Positions 17,282-24,567 of a DNA stretch of 29,694 nucleotides are shown here, one piece after another. The DNA lies in the IMG/VR virus record IMGVR_UViG_3300036770_005530, positions 1-29,694 of that record. One strand, given 5' to 3'. Below the pieces are notes generated by a model that saw nothing but the letters and a program-made list of their open reading frames with translations, had not been told where the DNA came from and made no database searches. The stretch is from a virus. The translations under genes were made by a program, and so were the position numbers. Positions within the stretch are counted from its first letter, which is position 1. Every line of letters begins with the position of its first letter.

Positions 17282-18187
17282 ATGCTATTACCAACAATAC
17301 AAAAAAAGATAAAATATTTAAATAATAAAGACTTACTAGAAGAAATTCATAAAAGTAAAAACAGTTTTTCAAGTTTCACGAAACCAGAATATAAAGATTA
17401 CGACATAATTTTGGAAAGCTTGGACAAAATTAATGTAAGAACTATAGCAGCAGCCAAGAAAAATAAAGCTAAAAAAATCGGAATAAAATTATTTTTAGAA
17501 CAAAAACTGTTAGGAAATAAAAAAGTTAAACTATCAGAACTTACACCTAACTATAAAACCATAGCAAAGCAAGATATTATAATCAGGATAATGACATACG
17601 ATCACATCCCTCTTGCAATGACCCGTAAAAAAACTAAAAAAACTGTTGCAGATAATCATGAAAAAGTAAATTTCCCACCGTTTCAACATTGGAAATTTGA
17701 TGAAAATAATGAATTAATTTGTGTAGGTAAAAGCCATTGGAAGGGTGATGTTGATACTGGAAAATTTTCAAAAGATCATGGTAGAATCACTGAAAATTTA
17801 GGAAAAATGTTCATAAAACTTAGTGAAAGATACGCCCAACGTGCTAACTGGCGGGCTTATACCTACGTAGATGAAATGAAGGGTCAAGCAATTTTACAAT
17901 TAAGTCAAGTCGGATTGCAATTTGATGAAAGTAAATCAGAAAATCCATTTGCATATTATACATCCGCAGTAACAAATTCATTCACTAGGATATTCAATTT
18001 AGAAAAGAAGAATCAAGATATTAGAGATGATATGTTGGAAGAAGCCGGGTTAACACCCAGTTCAACTAGACAAAATAAACATGAATATGCCGAAGAAATT
18101 GAACGAAATGCAAAAATGTATAAAAATATAAAAATTGCAAAATCAGAAGAAGATGATATAACAGATACAGAAGAAGAAAACATATAA
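17282..18187 (+). CDS. gp55: Late-transcription sigma factor gp55-like, with long N-terminal extension
   Basis: A 301-residue homologue of T4 gp55, the small sigma-70-family factor that directs RNA polymerase to late promoters. The diagnostic region is about 185-265: YAQRANWRAYTYVDEMKGQA, then a stretch through QVGLQFDESKSENPFAYYT, then TNSFTRIFNLEKKNQDIRDD and LEEAGLTPSSTR. This is a sigma region 2-like core. T4 gp55 has about 185 residues; here about 130 precede a conserved VNFPPFQHWKFD segment. That N-terminal part is Lys-rich (KKNKAKKIGIKLF, TRKKTKKTV) and I cannot place it. The end is acidic (SEEDDITDTEEENI). GGAG lies about 13 nt before the ATG, which is long. It heads a rightward operon with gp47 and gp46, and late octamers matching its expected target are found across the window. 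Confidence 0.88.
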   Translation: MLLPTIQKKIKYLNNKDLLEEIHKSKNSFSSFTKPEYKDYDIILESLDKINVRTIAAAKKNKAKKIGIKLFLEQKLLGNKKVKLSELTPNYKTIAKQDIIIRIMTYDHIPLAMTRKKTKKTVADNHEKVNFPPFQHWKFDENNELICVGKSHWKGDVDTGKFSKDHGRITENLGKMFIKLSERYAQRANWRAYTYVDEMKGQAILQLSQVGLQFDESKSENPFAYYTSAVTNSFTRIFNLEKKNQDIRDDMLEEAGLTPSSTRQNKHEYAEEIERNAKMYKNIKIAKSEEDDITDTEEENI

Positions 18188-21844: not shown

Positions 21845-22195
21845 AATTCGGTAATGGCTAGCGTCGGCTAATTTCGGACGTACATGACAACAGGATTTAG
21901 GATCACTGGGACGTAAAATCTCTGCCGAAAGAGTACTCATTCACTATCCTTAACAGGACGAAGAGCACTAATGCCGTGCTTTGGATGTTTGAACAGGTTA
22001 AAAGGCTAAAAATGAGGGCTAAAAGGCCCACGCTAACATTAACGCTCATAATAGTTTTTGTTAGCCGCCGTCGTATGAAGACGCAGCTCGTGGTACCGGA
22101 CGACCGCCACTGTAATCGCTGTAATATTATGGTCCGTGAAACTCAGATGAAGTTACATGGAAGAGAACTTCGGTCTAGCTAGGCCGAAGTTCGTC
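21845..22195 (+). ncRNA. Candidate structured noncoding RNA, family unknown
   Basis: A hand count gives 162 G/C in 360 bases (45%) for 21841-22200, far above the surrounding AT-rich DNA. Hairpins follow one another on the plus strand: TAGC-gtcg-GCTA (21859-21870); TTTCGG+ACGT (21872-21881) with ACGT (21911-21914) and CCGAAA (21925-21930); TCCT-taac-AGGA (21947-21958); AGCAC/GTGCT (21964-21980); GGGC/GCCC (22016-22029); GCTAAC/GTTAGC (22032-22065); CGTC/GACG (22070-22083); CGGAC/GTCCG (22097-22136). Last is a 12-bp stem with one G-U and an AGCT loop (22165-22192), a plausible 3' end although no T-run follows. I found no group I or II intron core, tRNA or tmRNA signature. The strand, exact ends and function are inference. 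Confidence 0.5.
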
Positions 22196-22245
22196 CATAA
22201 AATCTAGATGAAGCACTATTTGATAATTATCTATATTTCACTATT

Positions 22246-22315
22246 AAAGAAAAAAGAAAAATTGCTTGAGCGATAGCGAAAAGCAAGCGAACGAAGTTCG
22301 CTTCTATATAGAGTC
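22246..22315 (+). repeat. 70-bp perfect direct repeat, copy A
   Basis: Identical base for base to 22695-22764, 449 bp downstream. It opens with an A/G-rich tract. It then has two abutting hairpins: TTGCTT/AAGCAA (22262-22267 with 22281-22286) and the 8-bp AAGCGAAC-gaa-GTTCGCTT (22285-22303). It ends with the palindrome CTATATAG and GAGTC. Perfect identity in noncoding DNA points to recent duplication or selection on the sequence. Confidence 0.95.
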
Positions 22316-22461
22316 TACTGAGTCCATAATTAAATACCTGACTAATTAAATTCCATCCCTTGATATTTCTAACTAAGTACCTTATTGAGAAGAATGATGA
22401 TCAATCCCTATAAGTTAATATGATTCCTTCTTGAGAACACCTATTACTTCTAGATGGCTTT

Positions 22462-22519
22462 AGGTCGGTGAGAATGGGTTTGATATATATATTATTATCA
22501 TGAGGTGTTTCACCGACCT
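22462..22519 (-). repeat. Stem-loop cassette H1 (inverted orientation)
   Basis: A perfect 10-bp stem (AGGTCGGTGA with TCACCGACCT) encloses 38 nt. On the minus strand the loop reads AACACC, an AT-rich palindromic part (TGATA...TATCA) and AACCC. This is the same order as the loops of H2 and H3, but the stem sequence is different. Confidence 0.8.
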
Positions 22520-22552
22520 GGAGATCTAATGGAACACCTACCCATTAAGTTC

Positions 22553-22586
22553 GGCCCTCGGATATCCCTATCGGAGTGCCTTTTTT
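22553..22586 (+). terminator. Terminator-like hairpin with T6
   Basis: GGC-c-CTC-g-GAT (22553-22563) pairs with ATC-g-GAG-t-GCC (22570-22580) round an ATCCCT loop, with two symmetric mismatches, followed directly by TTTTTT (22581-22586). The layout is that of an intrinsic terminator for rightward transcription within the noncoding region. Confidence 0.5.
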
Positions 22587-22629
22587 CATTTACATAAGAG
22601 ATATAGAGGAATTGATTGATATAGAACAC

Positions 22630-22687
22630 CAGGTGGTTGAAAACACCTAGTATATATATTAGTATACCCCCCTTTTTCAACCACCTG
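22630..22687 (+). repeat. Stem-loop cassette H2
   Basis: A perfect 14-bp stem (CAGGTGGTTGAAAA at 22630-22643 with TTTTCAACCACCTG at 22674-22687) encloses a 30-nt loop. The loop starts CACC, has a TATATATATTAG core with an inner GTATA/TATAC pairing, and ends in six C. It lies 7 bp before repeat copy B. Confidence 0.85.
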
Positions 22688-22694
22688 CTCAATA

Positions 22695-22764
22695 AAAGAA
22701 AAAAGAAAAATTGCTTGAGCGATAGCGAAAAGCAAGCGAACGAAGTTCGCTTCTATATAGAGTC
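22695..22764 (+). repeat. 70-bp perfect direct repeat, copy B
   Basis: Second exact copy of 22246-22315, with the same paired hairpins (22711-22716/22730-22735 and 22734-22741/22745-22752). It is sandwiched between stem-loops H2 and H3. Similarity to copy A decays into GAGTCCAT-like sequence just downstream, suggesting that the duplicated unit was once longer. Confidence 0.95.
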
Positions 22765-22785
22765 CATTATCACATATCTGAGCCA

Positions 22786-22851
22786 TTAAGTAGCCGAAAA
22801 CACCGGGTGTATATATATTAGTACCCCCCCCCCTCTTTTTCGGCCACTTAA
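22786..22851 (+). repeat. Stem-loop cassette H3
   Basis: A 15-bp stem with a single A-C mismatch (TTAAGTAGCCGAAAA at 22786-22800 with TTTTCGGCCACTTAA at 22837-22851) encloses 36 nt. The loop reads CACC, GGGT, a TATATATATTAG core and TA, then a run of ten C (22824-22833) and TCT. It has the same loop plan as H2 with a different stem. Confidence 0.82.
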
Positions 22852-22910: not shown

Positions 22911-22918
22911 TATAAATA
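22911..22918 (+). promoter_or_regulatory. Late promoter (TATAAATA) for the 179-residue protein
   Basis: This is the exact T4 late consensus TATAAATA, 25 nt upstream of the ATG at 22944. The predicted start near 22924 leaves a 20-nt leader containing AAGGAATT. Perfect sequence, good spacing and a proper ribosome-binding site make this the best late promoter in the window. Confidence 0.72.
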
Positions 22919-22943: not shown

Positions 22944-23483
22944 ATGAAACTCTCAGATGTATTAAATGAAGAACAAATTGATGAATTAGGCACAACACCT
23001 ATGGGTATTGGTGCAAGATTAGGTTATGGCGCATTATCTAAGTTGGGATCATCAAGTGCACAAGCAAGACTAGATGTAGGTAAAAGAGCTAACCGATTTG
23101 AAAAGGCATTTAATGGATGGGCAAGAAGATCCGGTTTAGATCTGGAAAATATTAAAGATGTAGATATAGATGACTTCCTTAATGCACATGGCTTACCAAA
23201 TTATGATCATAAAGGGGTAACTTCCTATGATATGTCTGATAATACAGTCACCCGAGATTTATGGACTAAAGTTGCCAATCAAACCTATCGTGCAGCGGGT
23301 GCAGTACCAGCAGGTAAACCAAAATTGGGAACTCAATTAGGAGTGCCTGCTACTCCAACCACTAGAAGTTTCACAGGTCCTAAAGGGGTAAGAACATTAA
23401 CATCATATGCAGGATCTCTGAGTAAGAGTGATTTATATGATTTACTGAGAAATCTAACCAATAAGTACAGAAGTATGCCTTAA
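22944..23483 (+). CDS. Probable virion-internal protein with capsid-targeting-like N-terminus
   Basis: A 179-residue protein without a family I can name. It begins MKLSDVLNEEQIDELG, which resembles the short capsid-targeting leader of T4 internal proteins. Within it, LNE and IDE fit the L/I-x-E site of the gp21 prohead protease. The rest is moderately basic (RANRFEKAFNGWARRSGLDL, LLRNLTNKYRSMP), with a Gly/Pro/Thr-rich linker (about 117-150). An exact TATAAATA promoter and AAGGAATT give strong late-expression signals. It converges on the gp26-associated gene and shares four bases with its stop. Packaging into the head is inference from the N-terminus and late promoter; a minor tail protein is an alternative. 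Confidence 0.7.
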   Translation: MKLSDVLNEEQIDELGTTPMGIGARLGYGALSKLGSSSAQARLDVGKRANRFEKAFNGWARRSGLDLENIKDVDIDDFLNAHGLPNYDHKGVTSYDMSDNTVTRDLWTKVANQTYRAAGAVPAGKPKLGTQLGVPATPTTRSFTGPKGVRTLTSYAGSLSKSDLYDLLRNLTNKYRSMP

Positions 23484-23497
23484 ATAAAAGGTATGCT
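23472..23497 (+). terminator. Hairpin covering both stop codons of a convergent pair
   Basis: AGTATGCCTT (23472-23481), loop AAATAA, AAGGTATGCT (23488-23497): 10 bp on the plus strand with two G-U pairs. The stops of the rightward and leftward genes lie in it, overlapping as TTAA. The downstream sequence is only moderately T-rich, so termination strength is uncertain; on the minus strand the two wobbles become mismatches. Confidence 0.45.
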
Positions 23498-23698
23498 AGT
23501 TTCTTGGGTCAATTTTATATTTTCTTGAATAATTTCATTTATTATTACTCTATCATCATAGGATAGGGCAAATGCTTGGTCTATGTCTACTGACCCTCTC
23601 ATAAACCAAGCTATTTTAAATATTTCTTTCTTTAAGGCTTTTGAATCTTTATCAAATTTATTGATTTCAGATTCTATCTCTTCAAGAGAAAGACTCAA
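23480..23698 (-). CDS. Small tail/hub-assembly protein downstream of gp26
   Basis: A 72-residue protein: a charged helix (LEEIESEINKFDKDSKALKKE), then IFKIAWFMRGSVDIDQAFAL and SYDDRVIINEIIQENIKLTQ, ending in a short IPFI. This last pattern (W-M-R-G, then two helices ending N-x-x-x-T) recurs in small proteins beside tail and baseplate genes of T4-like phages. I place it as an assembly factor by context, without a firm family name. The only plausible start is TTG (23698-23696), overlapping the gp26 stop as TTGA; the next in-frame ATG (residue 33) would remove half the protein. It is probably translated by coupling to gp26. Confidence 0.72.
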   Translation of the reverse strand: MSLSLEEIESEINKFDKDSKALKKEIFKIAWFMRGSVDIDQAFALSYDDRVIINEIIQENIKLTQETSIPFI

Positions 23699-24567
23699 AA
23701 GCCGTTGCCGAAAAAATCAGAATTATTAAAGTTAATAGGAACACTATAGGATTCTGGTGCACCTCTCTGTCTCTGTTCCTCTGTAGTTTCAAAAAATAAT
23801 GGTTTTAATTCATTTGCTTTCTTAAGCTCACCTAGATGAGTTTGAATTTTGTCAAATATTTCTTTATCGGCATTTGTGACAAATTCTTTAATAAATTTTC
23901 TATCTATAACTATTTGACCATTGGCATATATTTTATCTATGCTATCACTAACTAGGTCAATTGTAATTTGTGTTAATTTTTCAAAGCTTTGTTTGAACAG
24001 TTGAGTTTTATCCTCTTCACTTAGTTCTTGATTATTAACTATATTTAAAATCTTATTGGTTTCAAATTGTTTCAAACCAATATGGGTAACGTGTTTAAAT
24101 GTTAGTGGTTTTACAAATATAATAAAATTTTCATTTATTATTATTTGATCTATCCAAGTACATTCACTTTGTTGATCTAGAACTACACGTAGATCCAAAT
24201 AATGTTCTACTTCCTCGTCAATATTTGGTATGGTATGGGATATTTGCATTTTATCACCATACGTGGCTAATCTTATTGCTATTAAAATATAATCAATATC
24301 AGTTGTTGGTATTGCCCATGCATTTTTTATGCATGGTACACAACTTTGAATAACATCTGCTATTGCTTGGCCGTTCATTAAGGCATCAGGTGTTTTAAAA
24401 GTTAATTCATCTTTTGCTGTCATTGAATAAACTGGAATTTCTCCTGATTCTGGTATATCCAAACTGTTTGGTTCCCAATAATTTCCTCTGCTAGGCAGTT
24501 TTATGTAAATTTTTGGTTGTCTCATAAAACTAAACAACGGGTTGTTGGATAATTGATTTGCGTTCAT
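23695..24567 (-). CDS. gp26: Baseplate hub protein gp26
   Basis: A 290-residue protein of the T4 gp26 type, a factor in hub assembly. The N-terminus is characteristic: FMRQPKIYIKLPSRGNYWEP, then EIPVYSMTAKDELTFKTPDA, LMNGQAIADVIQSCVPCIKN and AIPTTDIDYILIAIRLATYG. T4 gp26 is 208 residues; the C-terminal extension here is helical and charged. GGAG lies about 7 nt before the ATG, and a TATAAATA late promoter precedes it. It is divergent from the tape-measure gene and coupled to the small gene behind it, so both are expressed late with the rest of the tail. Confidence 0.85.
   Translation of the reverse strand: MNANQLSNNPLFSFMRQPKIYIKLPSRGNYWEPNSLDIPESGEIPVYSMTAKDELTFKTPDALMNGQAIADVIQSCVPCIKNAWAIPTTDIDYILIAIRLATYGDKMQISHTIPNIDEEVEHYLDLRVVLDQQSECTWIDQIIINENFIIFVKPLTFKHVTHIGLKQFETNKILNIVNNQELSEEDKTQLFKQSFEKLTQITIDLVSDSIDKIYANGQIVIDRKFIKEFVTNADKEIFDKIQTHLGELKKANELKPLFFETTEEQRQRGAPESYSVPINFNNSDFFGNGF

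Follow-up and report, generated by a model that had tools for sequence, protein, structure and literature searches.

In a phage, three noncoding hairpins, H1, H2, and H3, which all lie within 400 nt, have diverged as local copies of a single element (Table 1). This element is a nested palindrome of approximately 58-66 nt whose outer stem closes over a CACC strand, an AT-rich inner hairpin, and a strand rich in C. As a tentative explanation, to which we give a probability of approximately 0.38, a REP/BIME-like element would have been multiplied locally, and its foldability would be kept because the folded form acts as a transcript boundary or stabiliser.

Judged by its sequence, the window (the whole stretch of DNA analysed, 29.7 kb) is part of the genome of a freshwater T4-like jumbo myophage. 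A T4-type portal is encoded in it (Pfam Portal_T4, E 9e-107), together with other T4-like proteins, namely gp46/gp47-like subunits, gp25- and gp5-like baseplate proteins, and a late sigma factor. The closest isolates by the portal and the gp46-like protein were PA5oct-like Pseudomonas phages and Sinorhizobium phage Phosso (approximately 48-50%). H1-H3 are located within a 1,120-nt noncoding gap, defined by the absence of ORFs of 75 aa or longer. BLAST of this gap against phages and plasmids gave no match, and a search for relatives of the protein encoded downstream of it found none.

Table 1 Features in and around the noncoding gap (positions in the window).
Feature	Position	Strand	Remarks
Late sigma factor, likely gp55	17282-18187		
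SegE-like GIY-YIG gene	ends 21823		5' border of the gap
Polynucleobacter-1 RNA (RF01718)	21856-21990	+	85.2 bits (gathering score 37); model positions 1-141 of 141
3' continuation of the conserved RNA locus	21991-22315	+	outside the Rfam model; block GCTCGTGGTACCGGACGACCGCCACTGTAA, strong hairpin at 22165-22192, two-hairpin tail
Two-hairpin tail, copy 1	22262-22303	+	variable stem around loop GAGCGATAGCGAA, then GCGAACGAAGTTCGC; covaries strongly across relatives
AACACC/GGTGTT motifs (six)	22436-22804		starts 22436, 22504, 22533, 22625, 22642, 22799; three inside H1-H3, three outside
H1, nested hairpin	22462-22519	- (probably inverted relative to H2/H3)	10-bp core stem with perfect arms; inner TGATA/TATCA hairpin
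Intrinsic-terminator-like imperfect hairpin and six T	22553-22586	+	between H1 and H2; -12.9 kcal/mol, z -2.1
H2, nested hairpin	22630-22687	+	14-bp perfect stem; loop CACCTA-GTATA-TATATTAG-TATAC-CCCCCT
Two-hairpin tail, copy 2	22711-22752	+	inside the 73-nt repeat
H3, nested hairpin	22786-22851	+	14 pairs and one A.C mismatch; inner GGG/CCC and GTA/TAC pairings; 10-C run
T4-late-promoter-like TATAAATA	22911-22918	+	approximately 25 bases before the start codon of ORF 22944-23483
Orphan ORF	22944-23483		3' border of the gap

A covariance model was built from H2 alone, blind to H1 and H3. In the 29.7-kb window, this model recovered H3 (E 8e-10) as well as H1 (E 1.1e-4 inverted and 9.3e-4 direct), and the next best match, with an E of 0.11, was not convincing. 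The local score between the loops of H2 and H3 was 49.5, above those of all 2000 shuffle pairs (mean 23.5, maximum 38). The loop plan that the original prediction described as shared is thus better than shuffled sequence for H2 and H3. The similarity of the H1 loop was modest in either orientation (p values of 0.0045 and 0.0010 on the plus strand, and 0.0085 and 0.015 on the minus strand, each uncorrected).

The 10-bp cores of the three stems (AGGTCGGTGA, AGGTGGTTGA, and AAGTAGCCGA for H1, H2, and H3) align in register and are related, although they were first described as being of different sequence. Between H2 and H3, pairs 1, 3, 6, 8, and 9 are changed in the 5' arm, and pairs 1, 3, 8, and 9 in the 3' arm; four of the five changed pairs are therefore altered on both arms and still complementary, with a lone one-sided change at pair 6. 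In each of these four double changes, both arms underwent a transition. In the H1/H2 comparison, the two changed pairs (5 and 7) are likewise altered on both arms with complementarity retained. The chance of such both-sided complementary change was approximately 6e-5 for H2/H3 and 2e-3 for H1/H2 by a simple hypergeometric reckoning on three copies. Together with the recovery of H1 and H3 by the H2-only model, these both-sided changes uphold the view that the hairpins are paralogous copies whose changes preserve pairing. Selection on structure, of which such changes had been taken as the sign, is one possible explanation; hairpin-templated correction of quasi-palindromes predicts the same pattern, and three copies without an orthologue do not separate the two.

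As for orientation, H1 is likely inverted relative to H2 and H3, as had been proposed; the structural model, however, prefers the inverted form only ninefold, and the loop similarity is about equal both ways. The AACACC and ACCC strings of H1 run opposite to those of H2/H3, whereas its TATATATATTA string runs in the same direction, so that the orientation is uncertain.

All three hairpins folded much better than dinucleotide shuffles on both strands. For the plus strand as RNA, the z values of H1, H2, and H3 were -5.3, -7.9, and -5.5, respectively, and none of 200 shuffles equalled them. The arm lengths of 10 and 14 bp first given for H1 and H2 were confirmed, while H3, listed at 15 bp, has no clean 15-bp stem owing to its mismatch. 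With the opposite strand as the RNA, this single A.C mismatch would be read as G.U; together with the double transitions, this agrees with selection on RNA as well as with hairpin-templated correction. The stem of H1 grows to approximately 15 pairs including G.U when the plus strand is folded as RNA; in terms of the element, H1 and H3 carry their G.U pairs on the same strand. When this 'bottom' element strand (plus for H1, minus for H2 and H3) was folded as RNA, the energies were -29.3, -27.8, and -28.3 kcal/mol, compared with -18.9, -25.1, and -22.1 kcal/mol for the other strand. The better predicted folding of the bottom strand in all three copies would weakly support an action as RNA. A scan of H1-H3 against Rfam 15 gave chance-level matches only, none at a gathering score. 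Separately, the 14 nt at 22533-22546 are complementary to the two internal-loop strands of H1 taken together; this match was set aside, as the real window contains 49 such split matches and shuffled windows approximately 30.

The surroundings of the hairpins were compared with the equivalent gaps of relatives, found via the gp46-like and SegE-like proteins (160 loci). This gap often carries a large conserved RNA, of which the first 135 nt (the 5' third) match Polynucleobacter-1 RNA (RF01718; Weinberg et al. 2010, PMC2864571). The RNA of the window is a clear member of that family (85 bits), and 16 other loci reached the gathering score with 71-123 bits. However, similarity among relatives extends approximately 200-330 nt beyond the Polynucleobacter-1 part, up to a two-hairpin tail, and in the window the RNA continues for approximately 325 nt past the Rfam model. 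These results indicate that the RNA locus (21856-22315) is really approximately 460 nt long, approximately 320 nt of which lie beyond the 141-nt model. The locus is syntenic in many freshwater T4-like jumbo phages (loci L002-L081 and L168-L211); the sequence of L170, the nearest to the window among those found, stops within the RNA.

In relatives, the tail has two parts, a variable stem that encloses GAGCGnnAGCGAA and, 3' of it, a hairpin formed around GAACGnAGTTC. Across 15 distinct tails, 94% of cells were paired and 33 both-sided changes were counted against 8.6 in shuffles, a signal that collapsed on a one-column slide. The next gene lies closely 3' of the tail, often with a late-promoter-like TAAATA. 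Each of 32 relatives has one tail per locus, whereas the window has two; the second lies in a 73-nt repeat (22243-22315 and 22692-22764) that is 99% identical, which shows that local duplication has occurred in this region. The order in the window is tail copy 1, H1, the terminator-like hairpin, H2, tail copy 2, and H3. The hairpins lie in approximately 550 nt of sequence without a match elsewhere; they are outside the RF01718 model and absent from the other members examined, and relatives keep the RNA locus and the single tail at the equivalent place without H1-H3.

Several further structures were observed at or near this locus. A different structured-looking 5' RNA (GGTTAGCGGGCCAG...) with a tail of the same kind is present at the equivalent locus in three relatives (L042, 8722-9200; L207, 4450-4960; L211, 4690-5110), and an Rfam scan of L207 and L211 gave no match. 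In the isolates Phosso and PA5oct, Rfam found no Polynucleobacter-1 match. In large noncoding gaps a few genes downstream of gp46, both isolates (Phosso, L248, 8710-8790; PA5oct, L249, 8790-8880) have a long-stem hairpin with the shared loop AGTTTACGAA and differing stems, followed by a second hairpin; this pair is possibly the counterpart of the two-hairpin tail. In another relative, the SegE-like gene and the RNA locus are separated by a second ORF resembling GIY-YIG genes (L196, 4432-5082), a possible homing-type insertion beside the RNA.

The REP/BIME-like boundary reading is favoured because the copies are found at the end of the RNA locus, adjoin the terminator-like hairpin, and precede the late-promoter-like sequence, and also because the G.U-bearing strand is shared as described above and folds best in every copy. 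GTAG- and CGTC-tagged palindromic repeats of the REP/BIME type are thought to act at transcript ends (PMC3733652), and H1-H3 resemble them as short extragenic palindromes in close copies and opposite orientation, downstream of transcribed units. H1-H3 are longer, at 58-66 nt, than the 20-40 bp of a REP palindrome, and have a nested inner hairpin and a C-rich loop. They have no unpaired GTAG/CGTC tag at the stem foot (GTAG occurs only inside an H3 arm). REP are high in copy number; of the present element three copies are known, in a phage of which 29.7 kb is covered. No RAYT transposase was seen among the ORFs scanned in the 29.7-kb window. Like intrinsic terminators, H1-H3 are stable, GC-containing, intergenic stem-loops; unlike them (GC stem, short loop, U-tract), their loops are at least 30 nt long and no U-tract follows the stem. 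H1-H3 are not REP, since they lack the tag, nor are they intrinsic terminators or any Rfam family, and would work, if at all, like a REP/BIME hairpin.

Under the boundary reading, a nested palindrome would have been multiplied by local duplication, as REP/BIME-like palindromes are, and would have stayed foldable because, once folded, it marks a boundary or gives stability at the ends of transcripts. The setting would be a lineage-specific expansion of approximately 0.55 kb downstream of the RNA locus, interleaved with the duplicated tail. H1 would act when the RNA locus is transcribed rightward, at a point shortly ahead of the terminator-like hairpin, which a simple consensus scan did not call. 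The place of action of H2 and H3 would be the untranslated region ahead of the next gene's late promoter, perhaps in transcripts that read through leftward. Against this reading, the data searched contain no orthologue of H1-H3, the same scan called no terminator with a U-tract at H1-H3, and the flanks of the copies are otherwise dissimilar, save for 30 nt at 77% after each tail copy, the limit of similarity when the two spacers following the tails were aligned.

It is also plausible, though in our judgment less likely, that the element is a DNA-level site, in which the palindromes and AACACC would bind a phage protein of replication, recombination, or packaging, as duplex or extruded cruciform and in either orientation. 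In 628 nt, six AACACC/GGTGTT motifs were found against 0.4 expected, and none of 2000 shuffles reached six; half of them lie outside the hairpins. The hairpins also form with DNA parameters (z of -4.4, -6.9, and -3.4 for H1, H2, and H3, respectively), and the apparent inversion of H1 would suit such a site. However, no similar cluster was found at the locus in relatives, where a shared essential cis site should have orthologues.

Of equal probability is the reading that H1-H3 have no function and are local quasi-palindrome duplicates in which hairpin-templated mutation or repair (template switching), and not selection, preserves the complementarity of the arms. The paired stem changes are exactly as templated correction would give, the element is absent from all relatives searched, and the low-complexity loops (C runs of 6 and 10) suggest slippage. 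On the other hand, H2 and H3 show strong conservation of the loops alongside divergence of the stems, opposite to what simple decay gives, and three copies are retained in an otherwise densely coding phage genome.

Three insertions of a MITE-like miniature mobile element with inverted-repeat ends are quite improbable. Like bacterial MITE-like mobile sequences (PMC2229807), H1-H3 are small, noncoding, hairpin-forming, and present in several diverged copies, one probably inverted, with long terminal inverted repeats (arms of 10-14 bp). Unlike them, no dispersed copies were found in related records. The H2 model, with which further members were sought as the original prediction had advised, gave no convincing match in the rest of the window, in 95 related whole records (45 and 50), or in 80 further loci. 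Exact loop patterns had no match in IMG/VR, and pattern scans in which a flanking stem was required found none in 2.9 million viral contigs or 85,000 prokaryote genomes. Furthermore, no target-site duplication was obvious in the flanks of H1-H3, no orthologous empty site was seen for each copy, and no transposase was recognised among the window ORFs scanned. With H1 ambiguous in orientation and no copy found elsewhere in these searches, the earlier suggestion of an element that is mobile or acts as DNA, drawn from the one reversed copy, could not be substantiated. Among the sequences searched, H1-H3 are private to this phage, whose own genome is represented by 29.7 kb, in collections that may omit records very near the window.

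Some candidates from these searches were rejected. The weak model match in PA5oct (E 0.09) was a plain AT-rich hairpin without the loop plan. A looser IMG/VR pattern returned 23 contigs, of which a few GC-rich ones (63-68% GC) look convergent, with other stems and palindromes. In GC-rich contigs L092 (10770-10850) and L096/L102, the end of a primase/ATPase-like gene carries a hairpin that combines GAAAACACC with an AT palindrome and a C run; its loop plan is similar and probably convergent.

The possibility that H1-H3 are functional hairpins of a modular RNA locus with shuffled modules (interchangeable 5' domains, a covarying tail, and here a tail duplication and extra hairpins), in which the phage expands a structured RNA and H1 is able to pair with loop strands of the H2/H3 type, is likewise quite improbable. 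Chance occurrence of three unrelated inverted repeats in AT-rich noncoding DNA is strongly disfavoured: the inner palindromes are indeed low-complexity AT and the H1 loop similarity is modest, but the fold z values of -4 to -8, the H3 match, and the paired stem changes speak against it, as do approximately 60 loci in GTDB genomes and IMG/VR that have the same loop motif by chance, none with a flanking perfect stem of more than 8 bp.

Another signal was observed nearby. The baseplate-hub-like gene (23695-24567, minus strand, phrog_150) ends with ...GAT TTT TTC GGC AAC GGC TTT TGA, in which the slippery heptamer T TTT TTC is followed by a stem-loop GGCTTTTGA/TCAAAAGCC with a loop of approximately 50 (23636-23730, minus strand). 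At least 14 relatives retain this stem-loop, with extensions that covary. A -1 shift would join the 72-aa ORF 23480-23698 to the 290-aa product, giving 362 aa. From these sequence features, 23636-23730 is likely a programmed -1 frameshift site, as in tail assembly chaperones.

Bacterial chromosomes are well known to carry short hairpin repeats whose pairing persists despite stem change; to our knowledge, such repeats are little described in phages. If kept by selection, H1-H3 would be an additional module of the RNA locus conserved among freshwater T4-like jumbo phages. The wider RNA locus, which is testable in any isolate of this phage group, has a broader interest than the three hairpins, and together with the likely -1 frameshift signal it may matter more than H1-H3.
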